From: Rhodobacteraceae bacterium HLUCCA12
GTDB lineage: Bacteria; Pseudomonadota; Alphaproteobacteria; Rhodobacterales; Rhodobacteraceae
Direction: 5' to 3'
Assembly (NCBI GenBank): GCA_001314715.1
Contig: LJSV01000023.1
Span: 1-36,899 of the forward strand
DNA: 36,899 nucleotides
Position numbers and translations under genes: made by a program. Each line of letters opens with the position of its first letter. Within the stretch, counting starts at the first letter, position 1. The notes beneath the pieces are model-generated. The model had not been told where the DNA came from, did no database searches, and was given only the letters and a program-made list of their open reading frames with translations. Below, piece by piece: positions 975 to 33,930 of this stretch.

Positions 975-1952
975 ATGAAACTTCTCAAATCCGCAGCCTT
1001 GCTCACGGCGCTTACCATGTCGGCGCCAGGAGCGTTCGCGCAAGAACTGCGTATGCTTTCGAGCTGGGATGAGAACTATGCCTACAATCCCTACATCTTG
1101 GAGCCCTTCTACGAGGGGGTCTCTGAGGGCACCGACGGGCGCATCACGTTCTCGCAGTTTGGCCCCGAAACCGTGCCGCCATTCGAGCAACTGGAACCGG
1201 TTGGTAGTGGGGCCTTTGACCTGCTATTCACACATGGGGCCTATCACTTCGGTGTTTCGCCACTGATGACCGCTGCCGACGCGCTTGAGGGAGATGTCGA
1301 AGCCGTACGCGAGTCCGGAATCTTCGATGTCTTTGACGAGCACTATCAGCAGTTCAACCTCAAGCTGATCATGCTGCCGATCACGCCGGAAGGCGCCTAT
1401 CATATCTTCCTGCGCGATCCGGTTTCCGAGGAGGGAGATCTTGAGGGTCGCCGGATCCGCGGAACTCTGACCTATAGCGGCGTAATCGAAATGCTGGGTG
1501 GGGTCGTCACGGTACTGTCGCCATCTGAGATTTACACCGCATTGGAGCGCGGTGTCGTTGATGGGGCCTCTTGGCCGATCATCGGCATGCTCGACTATAG
1601 CTGGTATGAGGTTGCCCCGTATCTCTTGCGCCCGGCATTCGGCGTGAATTACGAGCCCATCTTCATGAACTTGGATCGCTGGAATTCGCTCAGCGAGGAA
1701 GACCAGGAGGTGATCCTCGAGGTAGCACGCGATGTGGAGGACGCGTGGTACGATGATGCCGTCGGGATCTGGGAAGCCGAGGAGGCGGAACTGATCGAAC
1801 GAGGTGCGGAGATCACAGAAATGGGCGATGAGCAGCAGGCGCAATTGCGCGAGGCCTGGTCGGAAGCGTTGTGGGCCATGGCTGAAGAGCAGAACGCCGA
1901 AGCAACTCAAGAACTTCGCGACTTTGCGCGCGAAGCCGGTCTGACGGACTGA
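975..1952 (+). CDS. dctP: TRAP transporter solute-binding protein, DctP family
   Basis: Periplasmic binding protein of a tripartite ATP-independent transporter; it captures an organic acid and delivers it to the DctQM membrane pair. The 325-residue product starts with a Sec signal peptide (MKLLKSAALLTALTMS, cleavage after AFA). It keeps the family core: an RRIRG arginine region that in this family contacts the ligand carboxylate, and SPSEIYTALERGVVDG followed by a hydrophobic helix. Length is typical. The start is set by AAGGAGG at 961. dctQ follows after 5 bp and dctM after 2 more, so all three are co-transcribed with the biotin carboxylase genes. The ligand is unknown; the neighbourhood suggests a di- or tricarboxylate or hydroxy acid. 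Confidence 0.9.
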   Translation: MKLLKSAALLTALTMSAPGAFAQELRMLSSWDENYAYNPYILEPFYEGVSEGTDGRITFSQFGPETVPPFEQLEPVGSGAFDLLFTHGAYHFGVSPLMTAADALEGDVEAVRESGIFDVFDEHYQQFNLKLIMLPITPEGAYHIFLRDPVSEEGDLEGRRIRGTLTYSGVIEMLGGVVTVLSPSEIYTALERGVVDGASWPIIGMLDYSWYEVAPYLLRPAFGVNYEPIFMNLDRWNSLSEEDQEVILEVARDVEDAWYDDAVGIWEAEEAELIERGAEITEMGDEQQAQLREAWSEALWAMAEEQNAEATQELRDFAREAGLTD

Positions 1953-1957
1953 CGACC

Positions 1958-2476
1958 ATGAGGGGCGAGGTAAACTGGCGTCGTTTGTTTGGCACAGTGC
2001 ATGATATAGTTACACTTATCGGTTTTTACTGTGCCGTGTTCTGCCTCGCCCTCATCACGAGCATTTATGTTTATGAAGTCGGCGCGCGGTATTTCTTTTC
2101 CGCGCCGACGTCTTGGAGTTCGGCGCTCGTTTCCTACTTGCTCTTGTATATCGTGTTCCTGGCGATGCCGGAGCTAACCCGGCACAGAGTCCACGTGTTC
2201 ATCAGCATCTTTCTGGACACCTTGCCGGAGCGTCAGGCGGTTATGCTGACACGGGTGCTGTATACGATCGCCGGCATCGCCTGTCTGATCGGCGCCTATT
2301 TCTCTTTTGGGGCTACATCACATCAGTTTTTGACCGGCATCACCACCGTAAACGAATGGCGCGTCCCAAAGTGGCTGGTCTCTGTAGCGATACCCTACGG
2401 ACTGTTTTCTACCGGACTGTACTATCTTCGCCATGTGATGGGTAGAATTAGCTTTTGCGACGAGAGGGTTAGCTGA
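1958..2476 (+). CDS. dctQ: TRAP transporter small permease, DctQ
   Basis: Small membrane subunit of the TRAP importer. The 172-residue protein has four hydrophobic segments: one after the first 15 residues (IVTLIGFYCAVFCLAL), one at the SYLLLYIVFLAMPEL region, one at TIAGIACLIGAYFSF and one near VSVAIPYGLFSTG. The motif around ELTRHRVHV matches the family pattern of an E..R...H segment after the second membrane helix. It sits between dctP and dctM with gaps of 5 and 2 bp. Start ATG at 1958. The role follows from family and position. Confidence 0.9.
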   Translation: MRGEVNWRRLFGTVHDIVTLIGFYCAVFCLALITSIYVYEVGARYFFSAPTSWSSALVSYLLLYIVFLAMPELTRHRVHVFISIFLDTLPERQAVMLTRVLYTIAGIACLIGAYFSFGATSHQFLTGITTVNEWRVPKWLVSVAIPYGLFSTGLYYLRHVMGRISFCDERVS

Positions 2477-2478
2477 CG

Positions 2479-3792
2479 ATGGATTGGTGGTTCGTGCTCC
2501 TGCTCGGGATCGGGCTTCTTCTATTGCTGATGATCCTTGGAATGCCGATCTTCGTTGCATTCCTCATCCTGAATGTCGCTGGTGTTTATTGGTTGCTGGG
2601 CCCCGCCGGGTTCGGGATGTTCGCCAACAGTATGTACGCGACAGCTACATTGACAGAGCTGGCTGCCGTGCCGCTCTTCATTCTCATGGGTGAATTGCTG
2701 TTCCGATCCGGTGCGATGGAACGATTGTTGACGTCTCTAGACCGGCTCGTCGGCCAGATCAGGGGGCGGCAGTATATCCTTTGTATCCTCTTGTCGGCGA
2801 TATGTGGTGCGCTGGCGGGTGCCGCCATGGCCGTGGCCGGGCTTCTTGGCCGGTCGCTGTATCCAACCATGGCGAAGCGCGGCTATGATCGCAAGCTTTC
2901 GGCGGGAACGATCCTGGGCGGCGCGACAGTCGATGCGATCATCCCGCCGAGCGTGCTGGCCATCATCGTTGCATCTCTAGCCAAAGTTTCCACGGGCAGC
3001 CTGCTGGTGGCTGGCATAATACCGGGCCTCTTTCTGCTAGGGATGTCGACGATCTACGTATTGGTGCGCGTCCGCTATAATCCCTCGCTTGCTCCGGATC
3101 TTTCGGAGGATCTTCGCGACCCAAATACCAGGGGAAGTGCATTCATTGCCTTTCTCCGTCTATTGCCGGTCATGTCAATTTTCCTGGTCGTGATGGGTTT
3201 CATCATGCTTGGGATCGCCACTCCGACCGAGGCCGCGGCATGTGGCGTGCTGTGCGCGCTCGTCCTATCAGGCTTCTACGGAGGGTTGAACTGGCAAATG
3301 CTCCACCAGTCGCTGACCTCGGGTGTTCGCGTCGCGGGGATCATGCTGGCGATCATGGCTTGCGCCGCGATGTTCAATCAGCTTCTGATTTTCTCGGGGG
3401 CGTTGAGCCAGTTGACCACATTCGTGCTGGAACTTAACCCGGCCTACTATGTGATGCTGGCGCTGATGCTGGCTCTTCCGTTCTTCCTGTTCATGTTCCT
3501 TGATCAGGTTTCGGTTCTCATGGTGCTGGTTCCACTGTATCTTCCGATTATCGACTTGTACGAATTCGATCCCATCTGGTTCTGGGCGCTGATCCTGGTG
3601 ATAGCCACGGCCGGTGGGATTACTCCGCCACTTGGCTACACGCTTTATGCCTTTAAGAGTGCGGTTCCGCACTTCGATACGCGCGAGCTGTTTCAGGCGG
3701 CACTACCGTTCGTCGGGCTGATCGTGATGGGCATCGTAATCATGATCATCTTTCCTGGAATTATCACCTATCTCCCGAACCTAATGCGATAG
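2479..3792 (+). CDS. dctM: TRAP transporter large permease, DctM
   Basis: Sodium-coupled channel subunit of the TRAP importer. The product is 437 residues, usual for DctM, with about twelve hydrophobic segments. Family landmarks are visible: VPLFILMGELLFRSG near residue 70, GAAMAVAGLLGRSLYPTM, then AGTILGGATVDAIIPPSVL, and TPTEAAACGV in the second half. GGITPPLGYTLY near the C-terminus matches the conserved P-P-x-G loop. It follows dctQ after 2 bp. A 56-bp gap separates it from the carboxyltransferase gene, with no terminator seen, so the operon probably continues. Confidence 0.93.
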   Translation: MDWWFVLLLGIGLLLLLMILGMPIFVAFLILNVAGVYWLLGPAGFGMFANSMYATATLTELAAVPLFILMGELLFRSGAMERLLTSLDRLVGQIRGRQYILCILLSAICGALAGAAMAVAGLLGRSLYPTMAKRGYDRKLSAGTILGGATVDAIIPPSVLAIIVASLAKVSTGSLLVAGIIPGLFLLGMSTIYVLVRVRYNPSLAPDLSEDLRDPNTRGSAFIAFLRLLPVMSIFLVVMGFIMLGIATPTEAAACGVLCALVLSGFYGGLNWQMLHQSLTSGVRVAGIMLAIMACAAMFNQLLIFSGALSQLTTFVLELNPAYYVMLALMLALPFFLFMFLDQVSVLMVLVPLYLPIIDLYEFDPIWFWALILVIATAGGITPPLGYTLYAFKSAVPHFDTRELFQAALPFVGLIVMGIVIMIIFPGIITYLPNLMR

Positions 3793-3848
3793 CTTCCAAC
3801 AGACGACGACTGGCCAATTAACATTTGCAGATCGAGCGAGCACGAAAC

Positions 3849-5336
3849 ATGGCGCAGGCACAAGAGATCCGTTTTGTAGATACGACTATACGAGACGGCC
3901 AGCAAAGCCTTTGGGCGACCAACATGCGCACAGCCGTCATGTTGCCGGCGCTGGAACAACTCGATCGTGCCGGTTTTGATGCCATTGAGATACACGCGAA
4001 CAGTTTCGAGAAGAAGATGGTGCGTGAACTTCTTGAAAATCCTTTCGACAGATTGCGCCTGGCACGTGAGCATGCGCCCAACACACGGCTGCGCATCATT
4101 CGTGGCCGATACCTGACGTCTTTTCAGATTGCTCCGCTTGCGCTCGAAAAGCTCTGGTACGAACTGATGGGAGCATACGGCATTGAAGAGGTGCGCACTT
4201 CCGACTCGTCGAATACTGTCGCGGTCTGGAAAAAGCACATTGAGATGGCGCGTGCCGCCGGGGTCGACACAATCATCAACTTGATCTTTTCGATCTCGCC
4301 ACGGCACACCGACGACTATTATGCGCGGAAAGCGCGAGAGGCCGCCGCCCTTCGCCCTTACAGGATATGCCTTAAGGATCCCGGCGCGCTGTTGACGCCA
4401 AAGCGCCTTCAGACGCTCGTTCCCTCTATACTCGCTGAAACCGGTGACATACCCGTCGAGTTTCACACGCATTGCAACACTGGGCTGGGCGGTCTTTGCA
4501 CGCTTGAAGCCATTGAGTTGGGTATACATTGCGTCAACACGGCCGTTCCGCCGATGGCCGAGGGCTCTTCGAACCCGTCAACTTTCGATGTAGCACGAAA
4601 CGCGAGAGTGTTAGGTTACAACACACTTCTTGATGAAGAAGTGCTGAAGCCCGTAGAACAAGGCTTACTGCGTGCGGCGCGCCAGGACGGTATGCCAGTC
4701 GGAGTGCCACAGACCTACGACGCTTCGCATTACATCCATCAGGTGCCAGGCGGTATGATTTCCAACCTCAGGTTTCAACTGGGGCGAGCCGGCCTTGCGG
4801 ACCGGCTCCATGAGGTCCTCGATGAAATCGGTTGGGTTCGTCGAGATTTCGGCTATCCGATCATGGTCACGCCCTATTCCCAGTTCATGGGTGCGCAGGC
4901 GATGATGAACATCCTTGCCGGCGAACGCTACCGAACGGTTTCGGACGAGATCATCCAGTACGCGCTTGGCTTCTGGGGCGAGGACGAACGCGAGGCAATC
5001 GATCCAGAGGTGCGCGACAAGGTTCTTGACCGTCCACGGGCACGCGAGCTCGAGAAATCGCCGCCGCGAGAGATCGATCTTGATGAGCTTCGTGCCCGGC
5101 ATAGCGGCAAGGGAATTTCAGACGAAGAGATGCTGTTGCGCATTTTCACCGATGCGGAGTCGGTCGAAGTCATGCGCGCGGCGAAAACGCCGATGCGGCC
5201 CGGACCCGCAGGCATCGCCGGGCTGATAGATCAAGTGTCGCGAAGTCAGCGCGTCAAATTCCTGCAGATCCAGGGCAAGGACATGAATTTGTGTCTTCAG
5301 GGATCCCGGGCTGATGATCAAAGGGCAAAGCCATGA
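3849..5336 (+). CDS. Biotin-dependent carboxyltransferase subunit, PYC/OADA-like
   Basis: Alpha-subunit-type carboxyltransferase of 495 residues on a TIM-barrel domain, related to pyruvate carboxylase (PycB), oxaloacetate decarboxylase alpha and transcarboxylase 5S. Seen: the metal site DTTIRDGQQS (Asp16), a lysine at the carbamylation position in CLKDPGALLTP (Lys176) and HTH (His206, His208). It ends without a biotin domain, which is a separate gene overlapping by 4 bp (ATGA). The substrate-pocket segments differ from pyruvate carboxylase: the usual WGGATFD position reads HANSFEK (49-55), and FDALND reads SDSSN. Metal chemistry is therefore kept but the acceptor may not be pyruvate. ATG at 3849 is preferred to a TTG at 3825; neither has a strong ribosome-binding site. 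Confidence 0.85.
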   Translation: MAQAQEIRFVDTTIRDGQQSLWATNMRTAVMLPALEQLDRAGFDAIEIHANSFEKKMVRELLENPFDRLRLAREHAPNTRLRIIRGRYLTSFQIAPLALEKLWYELMGAYGIEEVRTSDSSNTVAVWKKHIEMARAAGVDTIINLIFSISPRHTDDYYARKAREAAALRPYRICLKDPGALLTPKRLQTLVPSILAETGDIPVEFHTHCNTGLGGLCTLEAIELGIHCVNTAVPPMAEGSSNPSTFDVARNARVLGYNTLLDEEVLKPVEQGLLRAARQDGMPVGVPQTYDASHYIHQVPGGMISNLRFQLGRAGLADRLHEVLDEIGWVRRDFGYPIMVTPYSQFMGAQAMMNILAGERYRTVSDEIIQYALGFWGEDEREAIDPEVRDKVLDRPRARELEKSPPREIDLDELRARHSGKGISDEEMLLRIFTDAESVEVMRAAKTPMRPGPAGIAGLIDQVSRSQRVKFLQIQGKDMNLCLQGSRADDQRAKP

Positions 5337-5848
5337 CCAGCAAGTTTGAGATATTGAGCGAAGCGGATATCGACAAGATCAGAAACCTTGTGGAGATCCT
5401 GGAAAAGTCGAGCTTCGACAACCTGACCCTGGAACTAAATGACATCAAGCTCACAGTCGGCAGCGGCAACGCACCGCAGTCCATGCCACAGCCCGCTGCG
5501 CCGGCTCCTGTCCCCATTGAGCATGGATCAACGGCCGACGCGACTTTACCCGCAGCCAACGCGATGCCTGCGCCAGCTGCGCCGAACCCGGTCGCGCCCG
5601 AGGGGCTAATCGACGTGATGGCCCCGACAATGGGCCACTTTTATGCGCGCCCGGATCCGCACTCCGCCCCTTATGTCAGCGTCGGCACGCAGGTCGATAG
5701 CGATAGCACCGTCGGCCTTCTGGAGGTGATGAAACTGTTCAACAGCGTCACCGCCGGAGTCGCGGGTGTCGTCGACGAAATCTACGTCTCAGATTCCGAG
5801 TTGGTCGAGTATGGTCAGGTGCTGATGCGCATTCGGCCGTCGGAGTGA
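5333..5848 (+). CDS. accB: Biotin carboxyl carrier protein
   Basis: Carries the biotin that shuttles CO2 between the biotin carboxylase and the carboxyltransferase encoded on either side. The 171-residue protein has an N-terminal AccB-like helix region (SEADIDKIRNLVEIL), a Pro/Ala-rich flexible linker at about 48-90 and a biotinyl domain with LLEVMKLFN, where Lys134 is the biotinylation site. The second residue of the usual A-M-K context is Val here (EVMK), as in some AccB proteins. It overlaps the preceding gene by 4 bp (ATGA) and is followed directly by the biotin carboxylase. It resembles the acetyl-CoA carboxylase carrier, but the context points to a dedicated carrier for the divergent carboxyltransferase, not for fatty acid synthesis. 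Confidence 0.9.
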   Translation: MTSKFEILSEADIDKIRNLVEILEKSSFDNLTLELNDIKLTVGSGNAPQSMPQPAAPAPVPIEHGSTADATLPAANAMPAPAAPNPVAPEGLIDVMAPTMGHFYARPDPHSAPYVSVGTQVDSDSTVGLLEVMKLFNSVTAGVAGVVDEIYVSDSELVEYGQVLMRIRPSE

Positions 5849-5853
5849 CGGAA

Positions 5854-7215
5854 ATGGCGATCAGGCGAGTTCTCATCGCCAACCGCGGCGAGATTGCGGT
5901 CAGGATTATTCATGCCTGCGAGGCACTTGGTATCGAAACTGTATTGGCGGTATCGGCGGTCGACAGAGATACTATGGCGGCCCGTATAGCCGACCAGGCA
6001 TTCTGCATCGGCGCCGCGAAAGCGACCGACAGCTACCTGAATCCCAATAAGATGGTCGCGGCGGCGCTTGCAACGGGATGCGATGCCCTTCACCCAGGAT
6101 ACGGATTTCTGGCCGAATCCGCTGATCTGGCGCAACTTTGTATGGACAACGGGATCACGTTCGTCGGTCCGCGGCCCGACCAGATCAGGACCATGGGCAA
6201 CAAGCTGTCCGCACGGACTCTTGCAAGGCGGCTGGACATTCCGATCCTGCCCGGCTCCGAGAAAGTGATGTCGGCCGAGGAAGCGGTATTCCTGGGGCGG
6301 CATTTGAAATTGCCGATCATGCTGAAAGCCGCCGCCGGAGGGGGCGGTCGTGGCATGATGATCGTGCACAGCCTGTGTGATCTGGTGCCCGCCTTTCAGA
6401 AAGTTCAGTCGGAATCCGCAGCAGCTTTCGGGGATGGATCGATCTATATGGAGAGATTCATTGCTAACGCACGCCATGTCGAGGTTCAGATCCTTGGCGA
6501 TTCACATGGCAATGTCATTCATCTGGGCGAGCGCGACTGTTCACTTCAGCGTCGGCACCAGAAGATGGTCGAAGAGGCCCCCGCTCCAAATTTGCCCGAA
6601 GCGCTGCGTAGTGACCTACGCTCCGCAGCCGTGCGTCTTGCCGAGGGTTTCGGCTACGAGAACGCGGGCACCGTCGAGTTCATTGTGGATCAAGATGACG
6701 ATACGTACTTCTTTCTAGAGATGAACACGCGAATTCAGGTCGAACATCCCGTCACCGAGATGATCTCGGGTATCGACCTGATAGAGGAGCAGTTCAGGGT
6801 CGCAGCGGGCGAGCGCCTTGGTTTCCGGCAGGAGGACATCCTCCTTCGCGGCCATGCAATAGAGTGCCGTATCAATGCGGAACTGCCAGAGGCGAACTTT
6901 CGCCCAAGCCCCGGCTGTATTACCGGATGGAAGCCGCCACAGGGACCAAACATCCGTCTGGATTCGCACTGTCATGCTGGCTATGTCGTGCCGGTCAACT
7001 ACGATTCCATGCTTGGCAAGCTCATCGTTTATGGACCGGATCGAGACACGGCCATTTCTCGGATGCAGCGTGCGCTGGCACGCTTCAGGATCGAGGGCAT
7101 TCCGACCACCTTGGAATTCCAGGCAACTCTGATCAACAATCCTGATTTTGCGGCCGGCACTATGAATACCACGCTCGTGGACAACCTTCTGAAATTGCCA
7201 GGATCCGGGGTATGA
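5854..7215 (+). CDS. accC: Biotin carboxylase
   Basis: ATP-grasp enzyme that carboxylates biotin on the carrier using bicarbonate and ATP. The 453-residue length equals that of stand-alone AccC. Seen: RVLIANRGEIAVRII at the N-terminus, the ATP-grasp glycine loop KAAAGGGGRGM (Lys158 onward), HVEVQILGD, GERDCSLQRRHQK, and the catalytic EMNTRIQVEHPVTE with Arg293. Start choice: a GTG at 5845 overlaps the previous stop, but CGGAG at 5841-5845 is spaced 8 nt from the ATG at 5854, so 5854 is preferred. With the two genes upstream it completes a three-polypeptide carboxylase. Catalytic residues look intact. Confidence 0.93.
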   Translation: MAIRRVLIANRGEIAVRIIHACEALGIETVLAVSAVDRDTMAARIADQAFCIGAAKATDSYLNPNKMVAAALATGCDALHPGYGFLAESADLAQLCMDNGITFVGPRPDQIRTMGNKLSARTLARRLDIPILPGSEKVMSAEEAVFLGRHLKLPIMLKAAAGGGGRGMMIVHSLCDLVPAFQKVQSESAAAFGDGSIYMERFIANARHVEVQILGDSHGNVIHLGERDCSLQRRHQKMVEEAPAPNLPEALRSDLRSAAVRLAEGFGYENAGTVEFIVDQDDDTYFFLEMNTRIQVEHPVTEMISGIDLIEEQFRVAAGERLGFRQEDILLRGHAIECRINAELPEANFRPSPGCITGWKPPQGPNIRLDSHCHAGYVVPVNYDSMLGKLIVYGPDRDTAISRMQRALARFRIEGIPTTLEFQATLINNPDFAAGTMNTTLVDNLLKLPGSGV

Positions 7216-7970
7216 CGCACGAGGAGGATCAGGTTGTTATCGTCACCGGTGCGGCCAGCGGGATTGGCAAGGCATGCACCGATTTCCTGCTGCGCAACGG
7301 CAGTCGGGTTTTGGCCGCGGATTTAGATGCAGAGCGCCTTGCGGCCGCGTACAAGGCAGGTTCCGACGCCCTTGTCCTACAAGCTTGCGACGTGTCGCAA
7401 GCAGACGATTGCACCACCGCCGTCAAGCGCGCCAAGCACGCATTTGGCCGTGTCGATGCCCTGATCCACTGGGCAGGACAGCATTCCACCAAGACCTGGG
7501 ACACACTCAACGCCGAGGATTTCGACGCGTTGCTGCGAGTCAATGTGACTGGCTCTTTCCTGATAGCACAGGCCGCAGCCCGACAGATGATCGCTGACGG
7601 GAACGGCGGCAGCATCGTTCTAACGGGGTCCACGGCGGTGATACACGCTCCGATCGGCGGCGAGGCTGGGAACGGCGGCCCGGCGTACGTGACGGCAAAA
7701 AGTGCCATAACGGGCATGGTAAGATCGCTCGCACGAGCGCTTGGGCCCTCGTCGATCCGCGTCAACGCCATCGCACCGGGTGTCACTGAGACACCAATGA
7801 TCGGCAACTATTCCGAGGCTACGCGCCGTCAGCAGATCGCGACATCGCCGCTGGGACGTATCGGGTCAGCGGAAGAAGTCGCCGAGGCCGGCGTCATGCT
7901 TATCAGTTCGTCCGCACGATACATCTCGGGCGAAGTCGTCATCGTTAACGGCGCCACTGCATTTGGATGA
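7212..7970 (+). CDS. Short-chain dehydrogenase/reductase (SDR)
   Basis: NAD(P)-dependent oxidoreductase of the classical SDR family, 252 residues. Seen: the Rossmann motif TGAASGIG (12-19), an acidic Asp37/Asp39 pair after the second strand (AADLDAE) favouring NAD, catalytic Ser140, Tyr159 and Lys163 (YVTAK), and Asn111. The usual NNAG motif reads HWAG (86-89), which is uncommon. The C-terminal IAPGVTETPM is standard for the family. It overlaps the biotin carboxylase by 4 bp (ATGA), so it is translated with it. It may oxidise a hydroxy acid or reduce a keto acid that is a substrate or product of the carboxylase; the sequence does not settle which. Confidence 0.88.
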   Translation: MTHEEDQVVIVTGAASGIGKACTDFLLRNGSRVLAADLDAERLAAAYKAGSDALVLQACDVSQADDCTTAVKRAKHAFGRVDALIHWAGQHSTKTWDTLNAEDFDALLRVNVTGSFLIAQAAARQMIADGNGGSIVLTGSTAVIHAPIGGEAGNGGPAYVTAKSAITGMVRSLARALGPSSIRVNAIAPGVTETPMIGNYSEATRRQQIATSPLGRIGSAEEVAEAGVMLISSSARYISGEVVIVNGATAFG

Positions 7971-8015
7971 ATTGCGGCGCTCATCGGAGGCGCGGACCAA
8001 CTAAAGGAGAGAACA

Positions 8016-8831
8016 ATGCGGGTAGGCCGACAGGAGAATGCGTTCACGGCGATCTCGACATCCGACACCCACACGATCAATGTTCGAGGGAAAGAGCTTT
8101 CCAGCGAACTGATCGGCGAGATCGGATTCTCCGGCTTCTTTTACTTTCTTCTTACTGGCCAAGAGCCCTCGGCGGCGCAGCAGCGCATGCTAGACGCGGT
8201 CCTGGTAGCTATCGCCGAACATGGTCTCGTGCCGTCAAACCAGGCAGCGCGAATGACGCTCGCCGCGGCCCCTGACGCCATGCAAGGCGCGGTTGCGGCG
8301 GGCCTTCTGGGATGCGGTTCGGTTGTTCTGGGCAGCACCGAGACATGCGGCCGCTTTCTAGCGGACATTCTCGCGCATGCCGAGGCGAACAAACTATCCG
8401 CCGATGAAGCCGTGCGGGAACTGTTGAGAAAGCGTCGCGCGGCACGTGCGACCGTTCCCGGCTATGGTCATCCACAACACAAGGAAGGCGATCCGCGTGC
8501 GCTGAAGCTTCTTTCTCTGGCGAAAGAAGAGGGTGTCGCGGGACGTCACGTCGACCTGGTCCAGCGTGTGGGCACGCATCTGCCGGAGGTCTATGGCCGT
8601 TCACTGCCGCTCAACGTATCCGGCGCGATCCCGGCGGTGATGCTCGATGTCGGCTTCCCTCTCGGCGCGCTAAAGGGAATTCCGATCCTGGCTCGCACCG
8701 CCAGCCTTATCGCGCACCTTAACGAGGAAATCAGTCGGCCGATCGGCTTCATTCTTTCCGGACATGCTGCCGAAGCGGTCGATTACGACGGGAAGTCCCT
8801 TGTGGGTGGCCGCGACAAGGAGGACGTGTGA
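8016..8831 (+). CDS. Citryl-CoA-lyase-like protein, citrate synthase superfamily
   Basis: 271-residue single-domain member of the citrate synthase/ATP-citrate lyase C-terminal superfamily. The size fits stand-alone citryl-CoA lyase, which splits citryl-CoA into acetyl-CoA and oxaloacetate. Seen: GYGHPQHKEGDPRALKLL, with His152 at the citrate-synthase His320 position followed by DPR, and the later LPLNVSGAIPAVMLDVGFP. In the family this second motif normally reads NVDG, the Asp being catalytic (Asp375 of citrate synthase); here it is Ser202. AAGGAG at 8005-8010 supports the ATG at 8016. The next gene is a class III CoA-transferase, a natural partner that would form the CoA thioester. It may act on another 3-hydroxyacyl-CoA or have altered chemistry. 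Confidence 0.75.
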   Translation: MRVGRQENAFTAISTSDTHTINVRGKELSSELIGEIGFSGFFYFLLTGQEPSAAQQRMLDAVLVAIAEHGLVPSNQAARMTLAAAPDAMQGAVAAGLLGCGSVVLGSTETCGRFLADILAHAEANKLSADEAVRELLRKRRAARATVPGYGHPQHKEGDPRALKLLSLAKEEGVAGRHVDLVQRVGTHLPEVYGRSLPLNVSGAIPAVMLDVGFPLGALKGIPILARTASLIAHLNEEISRPIGFILSGHAAEAVDYDGKSLVGGRDKEDV

Positions 8832-9964
8832 TGACAAAGGTTCTCGAAGGAATACGTGTCATCGAACAAGGTACCTTCATCACTGGGCCCGCGGCCGGGA
8901 TGCTATTGGCTGATCTCGGAGCCGATGTGATCAAGGTAGAGCAACCCGGCTCCGGCGATCCTTTTCGTGCATTCAGAGGTGGTCTCTACAGCCCCCACTT
9001 TCAGGCTTACAACCGCAACAAGCGGTCAATCGCTCTGAACGTGAAATCGGCCGAGGACCGTGAGATCTTCGACGACCTGATCCGCAGTGCGGATGTCTAC
9101 ATCCAGAATTTCAGACCGGGTGCAGCGGATCGCCTTGGAACCGGTGAAGCCAGGTTGCGCGAACTAAATCCGCGCCTTGTATATTGCGCCATCAGCGGGT
9201 TTGGAGAGTCTGGGCCTTACCGGCGCCGGCCAGCATATGATACGGTCGCGCAAGCCAGTAGCGGCTTTCTGCACCTGCTCATCAATCCTGAAAACCCGAG
9301 GGTAGTCGGACCCGCGATTGCCGACGCCGTCACTGGATTCTATGCGGCTTATGGGGTCATGGGCGCGCTTGTCGAGCGCGGACGCACAGGCGTTGGTCGC
9401 AGTGTAAGCGTTTCGATGCTCGAGGCGATGTGCCACTTCAACATCGACGCATTCGCACACCTATTTGCGCTCAAGGACGTGACCGGACCCTACAGCCGCC
9501 CTCGCGCATCCCAATCCTACGTCCTGGAATGCGCGGATCATCGGTGGATCGCGCTTCACATGTCGTCACCTGACAAGTTTTGGCAATCGCTCGCAAAGGT
9601 CATCGAGCGCCCCGACTTGTTCGACGATCCGCGCTTTTCGGATCGTTTTGCACGCATCGACAACTACGAGGATATGATTGGAACCTTGGCCGAGGCATTT
9701 CGCACGCGCAGTTGCGACGAATGGTGCGCCCTGCTTGAAGCAGAGGATGTCCCTCACGCGCCCGTATACAAGAGCGACGAGGTCATGGGAGACCCGCAAG
9801 TAAAACACCTTGGCATTGAGGTCGAGGCGCATCACCCTGTCATGGGCCAGTTTCGCACGATCCGCGGCCCCGTCAACTATGACGGGACGCATGCGACTGA
9901 GGTTGCACCCCCGCCAACGCTTGATGAACACCGCGAAGAAATCCTCGACATGTTAAGGAAATAG
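8831..9964 (+). CDS. Class III CoA-transferase, CaiB/BaiF family
   Basis: Transfers CoA between carboxylic acids through an aspartyl-CoA thioester. The 377-residue product is full length. Seen: VLEGIRVIEQGTFITGPAAG at the start, LADLGADVIKVEQPGSGDP, NRNKRSIALNVKS, YIQNFRPGAADRLG, and PAIADAVTGFYA with the catalytic Asp165. The ATG at 8831 has AAGGAGG 7 nt upstream at 8817-8823; a GTG at 8828 is too close to it. It follows the lyase-like gene with overlapping stop and start, which suggests that it activates the acid that the lyase then cleaves, as in succinyl-CoA:citramalate transfer. It is the last gene of operon A. The following 120 bp separates it from the convergent hydrolase gene, with no clear terminator hairpin. 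Confidence 0.9.
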   Translation: MTKVLEGIRVIEQGTFITGPAAGMLLADLGADVIKVEQPGSGDPFRAFRGGLYSPHFQAYNRNKRSIALNVKSAEDREIFDDLIRSADVYIQNFRPGAADRLGTGEARLRELNPRLVYCAISGFGESGPYRRRPAYDTVAQASSGFLHLLINPENPRVVGPAIADAVTGFYAAYGVMGALVERGRTGVGRSVSVSMLEAMCHFNIDAFAHLFALKDVTGPYSRPRASQSYVLECADHRWIALHMSSPDKFWQSLAKVIERPDLFDDPRFSDRFARIDNYEDMIGTLAEAFRTRSCDEWCALLEAEDVPHAPVYKSDEVMGDPQVKHLGIEVEAHHPVMGQFRTIRGPVNYDGTHATEVAPPPTLDEHREEILDMLRK

Positions 9965-10084: not shown

Positions 10085-10978
10085 TCACGACGGAGGAGGG
10101 AAGAGGCTGGAATAGTGATCGGCGATCCTCCCGGGCGTGGTAATCCACACGTCTCCGCTATGCTGCGCAATGTGGTGCAGCGCGCGCCTCAAGGCCCTGA
10201 GCCGGTACGGGTGACCTATCACGAACGGATGAAGGACGATCGTGTAGCACAGCGAATACTTGCGGCTTTGCACCAGCATCTCGTCGAACTGATCGATCAT
10301 AAGGCGTTCGAAGTTTTGATGTCCTTCCTGGCGGAACACCATAATGGGACTGTCGTTGACCTCTATCGAATAAGGAACAGAAAGGATGGGTCCCGCCCGG
10401 GTCCGCATCCAGAAAGGTTGATCGTCTGCCGGCCAGTCAAGTATATAGCGAAGTCCGGCTTCGCGCAGTAGATCCAGCGTTACATCGGAATGCGCCAAAT
10501 AGGGGCCCATCCAGCCAAGCGGGGCATTACCCGTATATTTGCGAATGGCCCCCAGAGACTCTTCAATCAATTGGCGCTCATCCGCTTCGGAAAGTGAGTC
10601 TTGACGCTCGCCGTTCGTGCGACCGTGGGCTACAAACTCATCCTTGCGGGCGATGATTCGATCCGCAATTTGGGGACAATGTTCGAATAGCAGCGAGTTG
10701 AAGTTGTGGGAAGCAGGAAAGCCAAGTTCATCGAGTAGGTCGAAAAGATACCACTGACCGACACGATTGCCGTAGTCCCGCCATGCATAGTTACGGCTGG
10801 TCTGCGAGGCGGTCACGCTAGCGCTATCGCTTCCCAGCCCGTCACGAAAGCTGAAGATCTCAATGTTGTTGCAAATCGCAACCGATAACCGCTTGCCTTC
10901 GGGCCAGGTAAAATCGGGACGTTCGGGCAGTGGACTATAATCGTAGCGGTTATGATGCTTGAGTTTCAGCAGGCTCAT
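10085..10978 (-). CDS. Polysaccharide-deacetylase-fold cyclic amide hydrolase (PuuE/imidase-like)
   Basis: 297-residue protein of the NodB-like fold in the subgroup containing the allantoinase PuuE and bacterial cyclic imidases, which open cyclic amide or imide rings. Seen: WPEGKRLSVAICNNIE near the N-terminus, RDYGNRVGQWYLFDLLDELG, FVAHGRTNGERQDSLSE (the EIASHG-type motif), PLGWMGPYLAHSDVTLDLL and a C-terminal VLHPFVIGHPYRLRAL (the HPxxxGxP motif). No signal peptide, so cytoplasmic, unlike true polysaccharide deacetylases. The ATG at 10978 overlaps the 2Fe-2S gene stop by 4 bp; longer in-frame openings lie inside that gene. It is the last gene of the molybdenum hydroxylase operon, which fits ring opening after ring hydroxylation. 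Confidence 0.8.
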   Translation of the reverse strand: MSLLKLKHHNRYDYSPLPERPDFTWPEGKRLSVAICNNIEIFSFRDGLGSDSASVTASQTSRNYAWRDYGNRVGQWYLFDLLDELGFPASHNFNSLLFEHCPQIADRIIARKDEFVAHGRTNGERQDSLSEADERQLIEESLGAIRKYTGNAPLGWMGPYLAHSDVTLDLLREAGLRYILDWPADDQPFWMRTRAGPILSVPYSIEVNDSPIMVFRQEGHQNFERLMIDQFDEMLVQSRKYSLCYTIVLHPFVIGHPYRLRALRRALHHIAQHSGDVWITTPGRIADHYSSLFPPPS

Positions 10979-11481
10979 GACGGTTTCCCCACGGCAAGCT
11001 CGCTGCGGGCCTTCAGTTTGTCCGCGACCTGAAGAACGGCACGCGCGATATTGCGATATCCCGTGCAGCGGCAAAGATTGGATGACAGAAGCTCAGTCAG
11101 CTCGTCTTCGCAGATGTCAGGATCGCGCTCGAACGCTCCATTGATCAACATCAAAAATCCCGGTGTGCAGAAGCCGCATTGCAGTGCATGATTGTCTATG
11201 AAGGCCTGCTGAAGGGGCGATAGGACATCGTTTTGCGCCAGGCCCTCGACCGTCCGAACCTCTGATCCCTGTGCCTGAACCGCGAACATCAGGCAGGCGC
11301 GGACGGCACGGCCATCGACTACGACCGTGCAAGCGCCACAGACCCCGTGTTCGCAACCGACATGGGTCCCGGTCAGCCGGCAATCCTCGCGAAGGGCGTC
11401 AGCCAGCGTCTTGCGAGGCGGACAGGCAATTGAAAAATCAGTTCCGTTGACCTTGAGGGAAAATTCAATCTTCTCAGACAT
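10975..11481 (-). CDS. Molybdenum hydroxylase small subunit, 2Fe-2S (CoxS/XdhA-like)
   Basis: Electron-transfer subunit of a xanthine-dehydrogenase-family enzyme, 168 residues. The N-terminal plant-type ferredoxin domain has Cys43, Cys48, Cys51 and Cys63 (CEHGVCGACTV...C). The C-terminal helical domain has Cys102, Cys105, Cys137 and Cys139 (CGFC and CRC in NLCRCTGY). All eight ligands for two 2Fe-2S clusters are present, and Gln101 (QCGFC) sits at the position that contacts the molybdopterin cytosine dinucleotide cofactor in this family. It starts 9 bp after the FAD subunit and overlaps the hydrolase gene by 4 bp. It is the only small subunit in the operon, so both large subunits presumably share it. 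Confidence 0.95.
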   Translation of the reverse strand: MSEKIEFSLKVNGTDFSIACPPRKTLADALREDCRLTGTHVGCEHGVCGACTVVVDGRAVRACLMFAVQAQGSEVRTVEGLAQNDVLSPLQQAFIDNHALQCGFCTPGFLMLINGAFERDPDICEDELTELLSSNLCRCTGYRNIARAVLQVADKLKARSELAVGKPS

Positions 11482-11490
11482 GGTGCCTCC

Positions 11491-12378
11491 TCAGGCTGAC
11501 AGTGCCGGACTGCTTTTCGTTTGTGTCGCGCTTGTGAGGGCCCGGCGCACGACCGTTGCGGAAAGATCGCGGCGATAAGCCGCCGGCGTGGCCGGATCTT
11601 CTAGCGGGTTGACGGCCTTACTGGCCGTCCGGGCGGCTTCGCCAAACACTTCGGCCGACGGTGTCGCTCCTTCCAGAACGGCCTCGGCTTCGGGAATGCG
11701 ACGGGGATATTCTTCAATTCCGCCCAAGGCCACATGTGGTTTCGTGATCAGGCCCTCGGTGAGGCGGTAACAGCAGAACGCCATGCCGAGCGCGAAATCT
11801 CCGGCACGGCGATTGAACTCGTAAAAGCCCCATTGGATATCGTCAGGCAGAAGCGGCAGATGTACCGCCACAATGATCTCTTCTGGTTCGCGCACTGTTT
11901 CCATTACGCCCGCCCACCAGTCCTTGGCCTTGATACGCCGCCGCCCAGATACCGAAAGTAGCTCGATCTCGGCATCCAGCGCGGCAGCAATCAAGCACCA
12001 TTCGGACGATGGGTCGGCATGGGCGAGGCTGCCGCAGAATGTGCCCCGCTGCCGGATGGGGTAGTGGGCGATATGACGTGACACCGTTGCTAGGACGTGG
12101 CCCAATGGTCCGGGCGCAACGTCCGAAGAATGAAAATCGGCGTGCCGAACCAAAGGCGGGATCGCGATTCCCCGCTCCGATCGGGACACAGTATCAATGC
12201 CTTTGATCGCATTCAGGTCGATCAGCTCCGAAGCATAGGCGACGCGAAGGGCCATCATCGGCACAAGACTTTGTCCGCCGGCTAGGATCATTGCCCCGTC
12301 GTCAGAATTGACCGAAAGCCTCTCGGCCGCTTCTTGCAGGCTGGCCGGACGGAAATAGTCGAATGGCGCGGCCTTCAT
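11491..12378 (-). CDS. Molybdenum hydroxylase medium subunit, FAD-binding (CoxM-like)
   Basis: FAD subunit that passes electrons from the 2Fe-2S clusters to an acceptor. The 295-residue product is the usual size. Seen: the N-terminal FDYFRPASLQEAAERL, the pyrophosphate-binding AGGQSLVPMMALR and RQRGTFCGSLAHADPSSEW (canonical TxGGSxAxADPxxD/E). The ATG at 12378 overlaps the stop of the class II aldolase-like gene by 4 bp; the longer frame upstream lies within that gene. It is cytoplasmic, with no signal peptide. The electron acceptor is unknown; the CoxG homologue encoded at 31282 raises the possibility of quinone reduction at the membrane. Confidence 0.93.
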   Translation of the reverse strand: MKAAPFDYFRPASLQEAAERLSVNSDDGAMILAGGQSLVPMMALRVAYASELIDLNAIKGIDTVSRSERGIAIPPLVRHADFHSSDVAPGPLGHVLATVSRHIAHYPIRQRGTFCGSLAHADPSSEWCLIAAALDAEIELLSVSGRRRIKAKDWWAGVMETVREPEEIIVAVHLPLLPDDIQWGFYEFNRRAGDFALGMAFCCYRLTEGLITKPHVALGGIEEYPRRIPEAEAVLEGATPSAEVFGEAARTASKAVNPLEDPATPAAYRRDLSATVVRRALTSATQTKSSPALSA

Positions 12379-13127
12379 CGCTGTATTCCTTTGGTTGTGG
12401 GGTGATGTGTGATTGCCGGTAGCTGGGATTTCCAATGGTCCCAGCTACGCTGGATCGCGGCCGGTGTGATTGTTGCGGAAAGGGCGATTTCGCCGTCTGA
12501 AAGCATCGTCACTGAACCGATACTGCCTGCAATTGTGTTGCATCGCGCTTCGCGGCAGGCATGAACTGCTCGGAAGGTCATATCCTGCAAACTGGCGCCG
12601 CAGACCAAGGCACCGTGCCCGCGAAGTAGAACAATGGTACTTGCACCCATCGTCAAGATCAGATCCTCGGCCTGTGCCATGTTCGTGACGACCATCGAGG
12701 TATCTCCGAACCGCGTGCGACTGTCCCACAACGGAACCTTTGCACCCATCCAGCCACCCGTCTGGCTGCTTGCGCCGAGTGAACGGGCACCGAGGCAATA
12801 GGGCATCAGGGCTTCCGCATGATGATGACAACTGGCGTGAAGTTCTCCGCACGCCTTGAACACCGCTGCGTGCAGAAATCGCTCTACGAACACGGGCGCA
12901 TCGGAGGCGCCTATCGGGTTGCCGTCAAGATCGAAGGGCAGAACATCCTCTGGTGTAACTTGCGCAGGTGCCCCGGCGGCCGCCATCCAGAAAATCTCGC
13001 TGTGGAGGGGATCGCGAAATGCGACATGGCCAAAGACATCCAGCACATTCTCGTTAATCAGAATGCGGGTTGAGGTCACCAGGTCTTCTATGAGGGCGGT
13101 CGGACGCTTTGGCTGAGGGGAAGTCAT
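12375..13127 (-). CDS. Class II aldolase/adducin-fold protein, probable decarboxylase
   Basis: 250-residue protein of the zinc-dependent class II aldolase family (FucA/AraD). Metal ligands are visible as His101-x-His103 in SCHHHAEALMPY and His171 in LLRGHGALVCG. VERFLHAAVF (Glu82) matches the ERFIH segment of the family. Members of this fold also decarboxylate hydroxylated aromatic diacids, for example the class II aldolase-type 3-hydroxy-2-methylpyridine-4,5-dicarboxylate decarboxylase of vitamin B6 breakdown. The gene sits between the large and FAD subunits of the hydroxylase with 4-bp overlaps on both sides, so it is made with them. A decarboxylase acting on the ring before or after hydroxylation is the favoured reading; an aldolase role remains possible. 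Confidence 0.82.
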   Translation of the reverse strand: MTSPQPKRPTALIEDLVTSTRILINENVLDVFGHVAFRDPLHSEIFWMAAAGAPAQVTPEDVLPFDLDGNPIGASDAPVFVERFLHAAVFKACGELHASCHHHAEALMPYCLGARSLGASSQTGGWMGAKVPLWDSRTRFGDTSMVVTNMAQAEDLILTMGASTIVLLRGHGALVCGASLQDMTFRAVHACREARCNTIAGSIGSVTMLSDGEIALSATITPAAIQRSWDHWKSQLPAITHHPTTKGIQR

Positions 13128-15487
13128 ATCGACACCCTTTTTGCGCGCTGGATTGCGGCGTGAAGGGTCTGTGGCATGATCGGCGCCTGATCGATTTCGA
13201 CACCAAGATCGCTCAGGGCATCCTCGACCGCTGACGCAATTGCCGCCGCAACCGGTATGACCCCGCTTTCACCGACGCCCTTTACACCCAGAGCGTTTAA
13301 CGGCGTTGGTGTTTCACTGTGGAGGATCTCGACGTCCGACATTTCTGAAGCGCTAACCAACAGGTAGTCGCCGAATGTCGTACTAAGCGGCTGACCCTCA
13401 TCGTCGAATGTCATCTTTTCGTAAAGGGCGTTTCCCAGCCCGTGCGCGAGGCCGCCAAGTATTTGCCCGTCAACCATGGCGGGGTTGACCATCCGCCCGC
13501 AATCATGCGCTAGCCATAGGCGGACCACGTCGACATGCCCTGTATCCGTGTCGACCTCGACTTTCGCAACGCAGCAGCCATTCGAATAGGTCATGTCATC
13601 GATCACAACCCGCTGCGTTGACTGCAGGCCGGGGCTGGAGATTCCCGGCAGCGTATAGCCTGGCAGTCCTTCGGCGGCGGCAGCGACCTCGACAAGGGAG
13701 ATGTATTTTCCCGAATTGCTTCTCGGATCGAGAACCACATCCCCTTCGATTTCCAGAGCGTTCGCCGGCAGTTCCAGCAAATGCGCCGCGACGGCAAGTA
13801 TCTTCTTTCGCACTGTCAACGCCGCCGCATGCGAAGAAGCGCCAGCGACAACCGTCTGGCGGCTGTTAAAACCGCCAAAGCCGTAAGGTTCGGCGGTGTC
13901 GCCCAGGACCAGGTCGACCCTTTTGGGATCGCCGCCAAGATGACTTGCAACGATCTGGGCAAGGGCGGTTCCGACACCTTGTCCCATCGCAGCGGCGCCG
14001 GTATTTACCTTGATCCGGCCGTCCCGCCCGACGCGAACGGTCGAGGTCTCGTAGGGTCCGCGTCCAGTTCCCTCGATGTAGTTGGCAAGCCCGAGCCCGA
14101 TGCGGCGCCCCTCGTTGCGCAACTGTGTCTGCCTCGCCCGGAACCCCTGCCAATCGCTCGCGCGCATGGCATTACGTTGCGTTGCAGGATAGTCGCCACT
14201 ATCCAGCACGACCGCAGTGCCAGAGCGCAAGCGCAACGGTTTCTCGCAGGGCATCTGTTCGGGCCTGACAAGGTTGCGCAGCCGGATCTCGGCGCGATCC
14301 AGACCGCAAGTGCGCGCGCCCGCATCCATAAGGCGCTCCATCACATAGGTTGCCTGTGGCTGGCCGGCGCCCCGCACCGGGGTGACCGGCGTTTTGTTGG
14401 TCAACATGACGTCTATCGACAAATCATAGGCCGGCACATTGTAAATCAGGGGCATCATCATCCCGGACGCATAGGGAACGTTTAGCCCGCGTGCGGTCCA
14501 TGCGCCGTGATCGTGAAGCAAGGTGCCACGAATGCCCAGAATACGACCGTCGCCGGAAAGCGCCATATCGACTGTCCAGAGCTGTTCGCGCTCCTGAGTT
14601 GCCGAAAGGAAATGCTCGCGCCTGTCTTCAACCCAGCGCACGGGTTGACCCAGGGCGTGCGCGGCGGCGGCTATGGCGATTTCCTCAGGATAGGTCACAA
14701 GCTTGGGTCCGAACCCGCCGCCAAGATCGGGCGCCAAGACGCTGATCTTACTATCGTCCATGCCGAGCATCGCGCAAAGATGCTTTTTAAGCGCGTGTGG
14801 GGTTTGCGTCGAGCTCCACACGTCCAGCCGGCCGGTGATCTGGTCAGGCCTTGCAAGAACCCCGCGCCCTTCCAGGGAATGAGCGCCACCGCGATCGACA
14901 GTATAGCGCCCAGAGACCACATGGGGCGCACCTGTAAAGGCTGCATCGACATCGCCATACGAAAAACCGAACCGGGCGAGCCGGTTGTGGGGTAGATCGG
15001 CATGCGCGCACGGTGCATTCGGCTCGGCGCTGGTCGCGAGATCAACGGATGCGGGCAAGGGCTCGAAATCAATGTCGATGGCGTCGGCAGCGTCCTCAGC
15101 TTCGGCGCGGCATTCGGCGACGACCATGGCGATGGTTTCGCCGACGTAAACGGTTTCGCTTTCGGCCATGACCGGCCGATCAAGAGTGAAGGCAATGCTG
15201 GATGAGGGCAGCCCCGTGGACAGGCGCACGCCGCCTGGGAGCAACGCTGCCAGTTCTCTGATGGTGTAGATCGCAACAACGCCCGGCATTCTTTCGGCGA
15301 CCTGTGTGTCGATCGACGCGATGCGGGCATGCGCATACTGGCTACGCACGAAGGCGCAGTGGAGTCCGCCAGGCATCTGCAGGTCGTCAAGAAAGCACCC
15401 TTGACCTCTTACCAGCGCTGCATCTTCAAGCCGGGTCACAGATTTACCAAGCAGCGTCCGTTGTTCTACAGAATAGTCGTTCGTCAT
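13124..15487 (-). CDS. Molybdenum hydroxylase large subunit 1 (CoxL/XdhB superfamily)
   Basis: Catalytic subunit binding the molybdopterin cofactor, 787 residues, full length. Seen: GKSVTRLEDAALVRGQGCFLDD at the N-terminus (small domain), VYVGETIAMVVAE, LGGGFGPKLVTYPE, the loop VRGAGQPQATY, AAMGQGVGTALAQIVA with the cofactor-facing Gln, and the proton-abstracting Glu740 in GVGESG. The loop lacks the Cys motif (AYRCSFR) of true form I CO dehydrogenase, so this is a hydroxylase of the aldehyde/N-heterocycle kind. It overlaps a second large subunit upstream and the aldolase-like gene downstream by 4 bp each. The substrate is unknown. Confidence 0.92.
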   Translation of the reverse strand: MTNDYSVEQRTLLGKSVTRLEDAALVRGQGCFLDDLQMPGGLHCAFVRSQYAHARIASIDTQVAERMPGVVAIYTIRELAALLPGGVRLSTGLPSSSIAFTLDRPVMAESETVYVGETIAMVVAECRAEAEDAADAIDIDFEPLPASVDLATSAEPNAPCAHADLPHNRLARFGFSYGDVDAAFTGAPHVVSGRYTVDRGGAHSLEGRGVLARPDQITGRLDVWSSTQTPHALKKHLCAMLGMDDSKISVLAPDLGGGFGPKLVTYPEEIAIAAAAHALGQPVRWVEDRREHFLSATQEREQLWTVDMALSGDGRILGIRGTLLHDHGAWTARGLNVPYASGMMMPLIYNVPAYDLSIDVMLTNKTPVTPVRGAGQPQATYVMERLMDAGARTCGLDRAEIRLRNLVRPEQMPCEKPLRLRSGTAVVLDSGDYPATQRNAMRASDWQGFRARQTQLRNEGRRIGLGLANYIEGTGRGPYETSTVRVGRDGRIKVNTGAAAMGQGVGTALAQIVASHLGGDPKRVDLVLGDTAEPYGFGGFNSRQTVVAGASSHAAALTVRKKILAVAAHLLELPANALEIEGDVVLDPRSNSGKYISLVEVAAAAEGLPGYTLPGISSPGLQSTQRVVIDDMTYSNGCCVAKVEVDTDTGHVDVVRLWLAHDCGRMVNPAMVDGQILGGLAHGLGNALYEKMTFDDEGQPLSTTFGDYLLVSASEMSDVEILHSETPTPLNALGVKGVGESGVIPVAAAIASAVEDALSDLGVEIDQAPIMPQTLHAAIQRAKRVSI

Positions 15488-33867: not shown

Positions 33868-33930
33868 CGAAATGTCAGCTATTGGACGAATGGCAGCTGC
33901 GCGGTGTCGCGGCGTAGAGGAGGAGCGATA

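Follow-up and report, generated by a model that had tools for sequence, protein, structure and literature searches.

Gene content of the operon

We analyzed a 36,899-nucleotide stretch of DNA from Rhodobacteraceae bacterium HLUCCA12 (contig LJSV01000023.1, hereafter called the window), in which an operon holds the complete gene set of a three-subunit biotin-dependent carboxylase, i.e., a carboxyltransferase (CT), a biotin carboxyl carrier protein (BCCP) that bears a biotinylation motif, and a biotin carboxylase (BC). The CT gene (positions 3849 to 5336 of the plus strand, with an ATG at 3849) matched the Pfam domains HMGL-like and PYC_OADA and is assigned to a branch of the PYC_OADA-type family outside the pyruvate enzymes. 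The BCCP gene (5333 to 5848; Pfam Biotin_lipoyl, 2.1e-13) encodes the motif EVMKL at residues 131 to 135, which includes the presumed biotinyl lysine, and the BC gene (5845 to 7215) reached 630 bits against NCBIfam NF006367 (cut-off, 597) and contains three biotin carboxylase Pfam domains. An earlier, sequence-only reading of this DNA had described these three genes as overlapping or closely spaced, and had given the CT its own carrier and biotin carboxylase within an operon fed by a tripartite ATP-independent periplasmic (TRAP) transporter. Both junctions indeed overlap by 4 nucleotides (nt), and the Pfam and NCBIfam assignments agree with that description.

The operon is a co-directional run of nine genes (975 to 9964) that opens with the TRAP genes: the solute-binding protein gene dctP (975 to 1952; Pfam DctP, 1.3e-28, searched as 954 to 1952), the small permease gene dctQ (1958 to 2476; Pfam DctQ, 7.2e-19), and the large permease gene dctM (2479 to 3792; Pfam DctM, 1.9e-65). 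The ATG of dctP at 975 is preceded by AGGAGGG. The PDB chains closest to DctP were 4mnc and 4mni (105.8 bits versus 56.9 for the next chain). That benzoylformate is the ligand of these chains was not confirmed in the papers searched, and it is not used as evidence for a TRAP ligand.

Three genes downstream of BC extend the set beyond what the sequence-only reading had covered. They encode a short-chain dehydrogenase/reductase (SDR) (7212 to 7970; Pfam adh_short_C2, 1.1e-49) with the active-site motif YVTAK, a citryl-CoA-lyase-like protein (CCL) of the citrate synthase family (8016 to 8831; 321 bits against the subfamily model NCBIfam NF004868, with a cut-off of 193, and a match to PDB entry 6hxp), and a class III (CaiB/BaiF) CoA-transferase (8828 to 9964; Pfam CoA_transf_3, 1.9e-109), whose closest PDB chains were succinate-hydroxymethylglutarate CoA-transferase and YfdW. 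The SDR has an Asp after strand beta-2 (AADLD), a residue that usually accompanies NAD(H) as the cofactor. Overlaps of 4 nt also occur at the BC/SDR and CCL/CoA-transferase junctions, and no intergenic gap exceeds 56 nt (dctM to CT), the next widest being 45 nt (SDR to CCL). The operon is followed on the opposite strand by a gene for a polysaccharide-deacetylase/PuuE-like protein (10085 to 11074), and an open reading frame at 122 to 544 on the plus strand, assigned by eye to an AraC-type regulator, possibly regulates it. Promoter and terminator scans of the operon found sites no more numerous than in shuffled sequences. Among the papers listed in literature searches, judged by titles and abstract openings, none described the operon's gene set, and the excerpts of the ketone and fitness papers PMC8084838 and PMC10949508 hold nothing that bears on it.

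Placement and acceptor pocket of the carboxyltransferase

The best profile match of the CT was pyruvate carboxylase subunit B, and neither curated cut-off was reached: the score was 312.5 bits against 402 for NF006761 (pyruvate carboxylase subunit B) and 274.7 against 756.5 for TIGR01108 (OadA). The source genome (3.7 Mb, 52 contigs, 99.92% complete) has a separate single-chain, full-length pyruvate carboxylase (PYC) in a frame of 1215 amino acids on contig C36. It also has a second CT of the window's kind on contig C17, with 41% identity to the window CT; this one belongs to a second CT/BC/BCCP set (L044) and groups with enzymes of Caballeronia, Arthrobacter, and Cnuibacter.

We built a 128-row tree from the window CT, L015, the CTs of loci L039 to L157 (excluding the duplicates L134, L136, L137, L139, L140, and L153), and three PDB fragments. 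Its nine references were two PYC and four OadA sequences from annotated records, PycB 5ks8, OadA 2nx9, and transcarboxylase 5S 1rqb; the single-chain PYC matches L019 to L038 were outside all trees, and the sequences of XccC, HpeB, AcvE, and CfiA were outside the tree set. A branch with full support in the SH-like approximate likelihood ratio test (SH-aLRT, 100) parted the nine references from the 119 other rows, including the window. A more careful 54-row tree, which omits the long-branched L144 (Sulfitobacter dubius) and most rows of the larger tree, separated the same nine references from 45 rows with a support of 100/100. The groups for the approximately unbiased (AU) tests were chosen with the first tree already in view. 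Constraining the window to OadA/PycB/5S cost 206.6 log-likelihood units (p = 7.6e-78), and constraining it to the nine references as a whole cost 86.4 (p = 4.9e-6). Because the trees are unrooted, we state that the window sides with the non-PYC rows and do not claim that these form one clade by descent. Kinase-linked clusters of the ketone carboxylase type fall on the same side of both splits, with PYC excluded. No characterized member was found in the 94-row branch that holds the window CT.

In these results the CT stands apart from the PYC/PycB/OadA/5S group; placement inside the PycB or OadA clades, which would have contradicted the sequence-only reading, was not observed. Judged by its sequence, the CT is no ordinary pyruvate carboxylase. 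The proposal in that reading of an acceptor other than pyruvate draws partial support from the tree position, the pocket changes shared with relatives, and the separate PYC of the genome. The presence of BC and BCCP genes in the operon makes a transcarboxylase, offered as an alternative in the same reading, less likely. The operon genes include neither the beta nor the gamma subunit of a sodium-pump oxaloacetate decarboxylase, and that assignment was rejected.

Residues were compared, in window numbering, in a 128-row CT alignment of the nine references and 119 other rows; the latter were gathered by similarity to the window, its relatives, or a window-headed alignment, and their make-up is therefore no random sample. 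The window CT keeps R15, D16, Q19, R85, K176, H206, H208, and S305, including all four metal residues (Asp-16, Lys-176, His-206, and His-208) that had been reported as retained, so that the enzyme has probably kept the ability to transfer carboxyl groups from biotin. The four reported motif replacements (WGGATFD by HANSFEK, FDALND by SDSSN, HTHDTSG by HTHCNTG, and GTSQPS by GSSNPS) all read as described; the first two are informative, whereas HTHCNTG and GSSNPS carry less weight, since the references are themselves variable at these positions (C209 is also present in two of nine references and S241 in six of nine). In the WGGATFD columns, W49, A52, T53, and D55 were each invariant in the references (9/9), versus 0, 16, 0, and 4 of the 119 other rows, respectively, and F118 in the FDALND segment was found in 9/9 and 5/119. 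Better diagnostic columns than these motifs were W22 (119/119 others and 0/9 references) and P178 (94/119 others; Met in 9/9 references). K56 (94/119 versus 0/9) and R82 (104/119; Gln in 9/9 references) behaved similarly. Pocket changes are thus shared with relatives. According to PDB sequences and titles, the 5S mutants of known structure, A59T and Met186Ile, are altered at the sites that correspond to positions 52 and 178. Arg-85, which we take to be the residue that holds the pyruvate carboxylate, was retained in 7/7 rows of the closest clade, 17/87 other rows of the wider group, and 41/119 rows overall.

The metal site varies within the family. In nine rows that belong to a single CT subclade and are in part kinase linked (L049, L051, L052, L053, L135, L138, L152, L154, and L155), Tyr occupies the position of Lys-176, the metal-site lysine whose counterpart in PYC is carbamylated, and the second metal His is replaced by Asn; at the Lys position, Glu occurs in L041, L141, and L151 and Ser in L144. 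The D-K-H-H set is thus incomplete in 13 of the 119 rows, and these proteins may function without the usual metal site.

An AlphaFold2 model of the CT was made from 20 alignment rows (L062, L069, and L130 are in the 128-row tree and outside the modeling alignment) and had a mean predicted local distance difference test score of 83.7 and a predicted template modeling score of 0.82. The top Foldseek matches were PycB 5ks8, 5S, and OadA, with query-normalized template modeling scores of 0.76 to 0.80 in the first eight rows and identities of 27 to 29%. The model confirms the fold but does not bear on the substrate.

The lyase-like partner, relatives, and gene neighborhoods

We compared CCL in 17 distinct rows from fetched loci, all from CT-bearing genomes or records and the window included, with the citryl-CoA lyase 6hxp. 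The two active-site His and the Arg of DPR were kept in 17/17 rows and the second Arg in 16/17 (Leu in L144); columns are named after citrate synthase residues, as we assume them to correspond. At the Asp of the 6hxp motif NVDGA, presumably the catalytic Asp of citryl-CoA lyase, we found Ser in 5 rows, Thr in 11, and Val in 1 (L173, from the source genome itself, contig C12). The window CCL has Ser-202 (NVSGA) there and thus retains both His and both Arg of the lyase without this Asp. The rows lacking it are those of the window, L039, L054, L055, L066, L085, L092 (two), L144, L161, L163 to L167, L173, and L175. Since 6hxp was the sole outside citryl-CoA lyase compared, we do not claim that the loss is specific to the CT-linked system. 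CCL might catalyze a lyase reaction that does not need that acid, or it might have another role such as hydrolysis. A scan of viral contigs with CCL found no relative.

A scan of a collection with one genome per species yielded 507 CT relatives. Among the best 80 of these, the closest were from Propylenella binzhouense (69% identity), an alphaproteobacterial metagenome-assembled genome (MAG) (64%), and a Polaromonas MAG (62%), followed by Rhodoferax, Burkholderiales, and betaproteobacterial MAGs at 61%. The window-type CT is rare in its own class: 8 of 385 genomes, the source genome included, matched at 1e-85, and only the source genome and G149 did so better than 1e-130.

Neighbors were mapped by tblastn with the window proteins. 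In Propylenella (L054), DctPQM, CT, SDR, CCL, and CoA-transferase follow the order of the window, with ISOCH and GMC homologues upstream, all at 59 to 76% identity; BCCP and BC are missing from the locus, and the closest BC and BCCP of that genome are on another contig. The Polaromonas locus (L055) holds CCL, CoA-transferase, DctPQM, CT, BCCP, BC, and ISOCH, and CT, CCL, and CoA-transferase also occur together in L066, L085, and L092. In L092 (a Rhodoferax MAG; 8 to 21 kb), a CoA-transferase-CCL-CT trio appears twice before BCCP-BC, with a third CT between. On a Sulfitobacter plasmid (L039; CT identity, 46%), the cluster comprises TRAP genes, BCCP, BC, CT, CCL, CoA-transferase, an isochorismatase-family gene, and a 3-hydroxyacyl-CoA dehydrogenase gene. 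An isochorismatase-family-like hydrolase gene is also present in the window (33904 to 34659, plus strand), 24 kb from the operon; its homologues lie near the operon in L054 (65%), L055 (54%), and L039 (35%).

Genes within 5 kb of CT were counted in those of the 80 loci that extend 4 kb or more to either side of it (34 loci): BC was found in 6, BCCP in 5, CCL in 5, CoA-transferase in 7, and DctM in 2. The five with CCL and CoA-transferase are L054, L055, L066, L085, and L092; both genes are also near CT in L039 and in L182. The latter is one of five further relatives (L182 to L186) from a search of 300 genomes that belong to the same order as the Polaromonas MAG. CTs of MAG loci were often near Amidohydro_2, NMT1, TctC, or UbiD-type genes (one representative being named per gene cluster).

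Ten annotated plasmid clusters of the CT family were counted (L151, L152, and L187 have no gene table and were left uncounted), and because gene tables are incomplete, the neighbor counts are lower bounds. Within the displayed stretch, at least eight of the ten encode a type of C-C-cleaving enzyme, namely, a thiolase (L041, L141, and L147), CCL (L039 and L144), an amidohydrolase (L043 and L143), or a 3-keto-5-aminohexanoate (beta-keto acid) cleavage protein (L042). The other two, L040 and L142, show none of these types, and L040 has an acetoacetate decarboxylase. Such neighbors fit a beta-oxo acid product, as would arise from ketone carboxylation. The amidohydrolase of these clusters may be HpeF-like; an assignment of CouO/HpeF as an amidohydrolase was not confirmed and is left aside. 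Genes of biotin supply also lie near the carboxylase, namely, a BioA-type transaminase gene in L040 and a BioY transporter gene in L142 and L147, all in the branch of the second CT set of the source genome (L044). The plasmid homologues are annotated as pyruvate carboxylase subunit B, biotin carboxyl carrier protein, carboxyltransferase, or hypothetical protein.

Five genomes, four of Candidatus Binatia (G473, G474, G478, and G479) and one of a deltaproteobacterium (G480, RHO3_bin_65), corresponding to loci L065, L098, L094, L063, and L088, contain 10, 9, 10, 9, and 10 CT matches, respectively. These 48 matches have 45 to 55% identity to the window CT, and five have one internal stop; four of the five genomes have one extra match at 32 to 33%. 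Each genome has two BC matches at 1e-60 (57% and 44 to 45%), one CCL at 1e-10, and one BCCP at 1e-6, a carrier count from which more divergent carriers could have been missed. G473 and G474 include the single long contigs OX638375.1 and OY282432.1. The 57% BC and the BCCP adjoin in all five genomes, and in the two examined (L170 and L171), no CT was found in the 19 kb around the pair. Other genomes differ in the same searches, with 2 CT and 6 BC matches in G475, 1 and 4 in G476, and 6 (a fragment and PYC included) and 8 in G477. It thus appears from these counts that one charging unit, which may also supply acetyl-CoA carboxylase, serves many CTs in the Binatia-type genomes. Among the papers listed in a literature search, judged by titles and abstract openings, none described a CT expansion in Binatota.

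Elsewhere in the window, the minus strand at 10975 to 19829 holds a fused TRAP permease gene, genes resembling 2Fe-2S and flavin adenine dinucleotide (FAD) subunits (by eye), and two tandem molybdenum large subunit genes, whose best model was NF040766, both below the cut-off. In the Polaromonas MAG (L055), the operon likewise has homologues of the large, 2Fe-2S, and FAD subunit genes nearby. Tricarballylate genes of the tcuA and tcuB kind occupy 24326 to 26819; TcuA scored 687 bits (cut-off, 369), and TcuB scored 357 with TIGR02484 (cut-off, 247) and 378 with the other TcuB model, below its cut-off of 524.

Proposed pathway, rivals, and known systems

On balance, and with somewhat more confidence than doubt, we propose that CT, BCCP, and BC form a carboxylase of the non-pyruvate branch, by which an oxo acid or ketone taken up by the TRAP transporter is carboxylated, followed by CoA transfer and cleavage. 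BC would load the biotin of BCCP with a carboxyl group, using ATP and bicarbonate, and CT would pass this group to an enolizable carbon of the imported acceptor, used either directly or after the NAD-type SDR has oxidized a hydroxy precursor. The product would be a beta-oxo acid, the carboxylate of which the CaiB-type CoA-transferase would convert into a thioester, and CCL could then split a C-C bond, giving acetyl-CoA (or another acyl-CoA) and a smaller acid. The direction of the reaction, the order of the steps, the nature of the acceptor, and the roles of SDR and CCL are what we infer here.

Several observations weigh against this proposal. Because R85 is retained along with the other catalytic residues of PYC, the acceptor might be an alpha-oxo acid close to pyruvate, or even pyruvate itself, and lyase activity of CCL is doubtful because the catalytic Asp is absent. 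Neighbors are shared only in part within the closest clade; of its four members whose DNA exceeds 15 kb, L054 and L055 do share TRAP, CCL, and CoA-transferase genes, whereas L056 (CT, BCCP, and BC; 16.6 kb) and L059 (CT alone; 21.4 kb) show no other operon genes. CCL is absent within 5 kb of CT in 29 of the 34 loci, and L183 to L186 show only CT, BC, and BCCP of the operon set (L185 spans just 8.8 kb), so that the CCL link marks only part of the branch. Moreover, the link to XccC, HpeB, and AcvE is one of gene content.

Another possibility is that the enzyme carboxylates a specific non-pyruvate alpha-oxo acid, in the manner of 2-oxoglutarate carboxylase, and that the product is reduced by SDR to a hydroxy-polycarboxylate, activated with CoA, and cleaved, for which sequence of steps the Hydrogenobacter citryl-CoA route is the model. 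The conservation of R85 in 7/7 closest rows, the extra basic residues K55, K56, R82, and R87, which would suit a larger anionic acceptor, the two Arg and two His that CCL shares with citryl-CoA lyase, and the tricarballylate genes in the same window all accord with it. However, the CT lies outside the PYC/OadA group, where we would expect CfiA to fall, CCL lacks the catalytic Asp, and the family neighbors elsewhere point to beta-oxo acids from ketones; we consider this route unlikely. The 4-nt overlap of the CCL and CoA-transferase genes, and the occurrence of this pair in the Polaromonas MAG genome in a 3.8-kb stretch devoid of CT (L167), would also accommodate a reversed order, in which the two enzymes first split an imported hydroxy-polycarboxylate into acetyl-CoA and a ketone or oxo acid that the carboxylase salvages. 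This seems decidedly improbable, since the activating and cleaving enzymes of other branches (thiolase and beta-keto acid cleavage protein) are of types that act on beta-oxo acids once carboxylation has taken place. Finally, a second, three-polypeptide pyruvate carboxylase or an oxaloacetate decarboxylase is very improbable. The best profile (pyruvate carboxylase subunit B, 312 bits), the closest folds (PycB, 5S, and OadA), and the kept catalytic residues speak for it, but that score is below the curated cut-off of 402, the trees and AU tests oppose it, WGGATFD is lost, OadB and OadG are missing among the operon genes, and the genome has its own PYC. A housekeeping three-subunit pyruvate carboxylase is disfavored on the same grounds of tree, AU tests, and genomic PYC.

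More broadly, and only tentatively, since we rather doubt it at this scale, the carboxylation-cleavage pathway proposed for the operon might be part of a large and so far undescribed catabolic system, in which CTs serve different oxo acids or ketones, an Asp-less protein of the citrate synthase family splits the CoA-activated beta-oxo product, and, in the Binatia type, about 10 CTs share one BC and carrier. Should members of the family act on ketones or on oxo acids other than pyruvate, the annotation names of the plasmid homologues would mislead, the carboxylate-then-cleave route would be far wider than the few studied degraders of lignin and bisphenol, and the CTs that seem to depend on a single charging unit would be candidates for making beta-oxo acids from CO2.

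In the mycobacterial system, AccD is a crotonase-fold acyl-CoA carboxyltransferase; the Binatia-type CTs, unlike it, are of the HMGL/PYC_OADA type. The logic of AccA3 with several AccD, in which few biotin carboxylases reportedly serve many CTs (PMC4347857, PMC5407890), resembles that apparent in the Binatia-type relatives. The window CT shares its fold and metal-site residues with PycB (5ks8), OadA (2nx9), and 5S (1rqb) and differs from them in its separate group, in the replacement of WGGATFD and FDALND, and in having the carrier on its own polypeptide.

Closer parallels are the carboxylases of ketone catabolism, among them that of the SYK-6 acv cluster, which we take to be named AcvCDE. Dexter et al. 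2022 (PMC9618137) showed that the biotin enzyme HpeCBA of Rhodococcus rhodochrous GD02, which has three parts, uses ATP and bicarbonate to carboxylate 4-phospho-acetophenones, and they named XccBCA of Aromatoleum aromaticum as its homologue. As described, the Hpe, Xcc, and Acv systems likewise have CT, BCCP, and BC as three polypeptides, and their genes, like those of the window, stand in catabolic clusters beside genes for CoA activation and cleavage. Kinase-linked clusters of this make-up are among the 119 rows with the window CT; the Rhizobium plasmid cluster L043, with two phosphoenolpyruvate (PEP)-type kinase parts, a carboxylase, a HAD phosphatase, an acetoacetate-CoA ligase, and a hydrolase, shows the hpe functions in nearly the same order (PMC9618137). 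The window CT has 34 to 39% identity to members of the branches holding such clusters, and its pocket residues differ. No PEP-type kinase or phosphatase was found among the operon genes, and the gene clusters c27 (PPDK-type) and c54 (PEP-utilizing) have no window member; the phosphorylated aryl-ketone route of Hpe as such was rejected for this lack of kinase and phosphatase. Instead, TRAP uptake, a CaiB-type CoA-transferase, and CCL replace the CoA ligase and beta-ketoacyl-CoA hydrolase of the Hpe, Xcc, and Acv clusters, as far as these are described. By sequence and gene content, the window system is a putative variant, linked to TRAP and CCL genes, of the carboxylases that act on ketones and oxo acids; the studied ones that we found handle aryl ketones.

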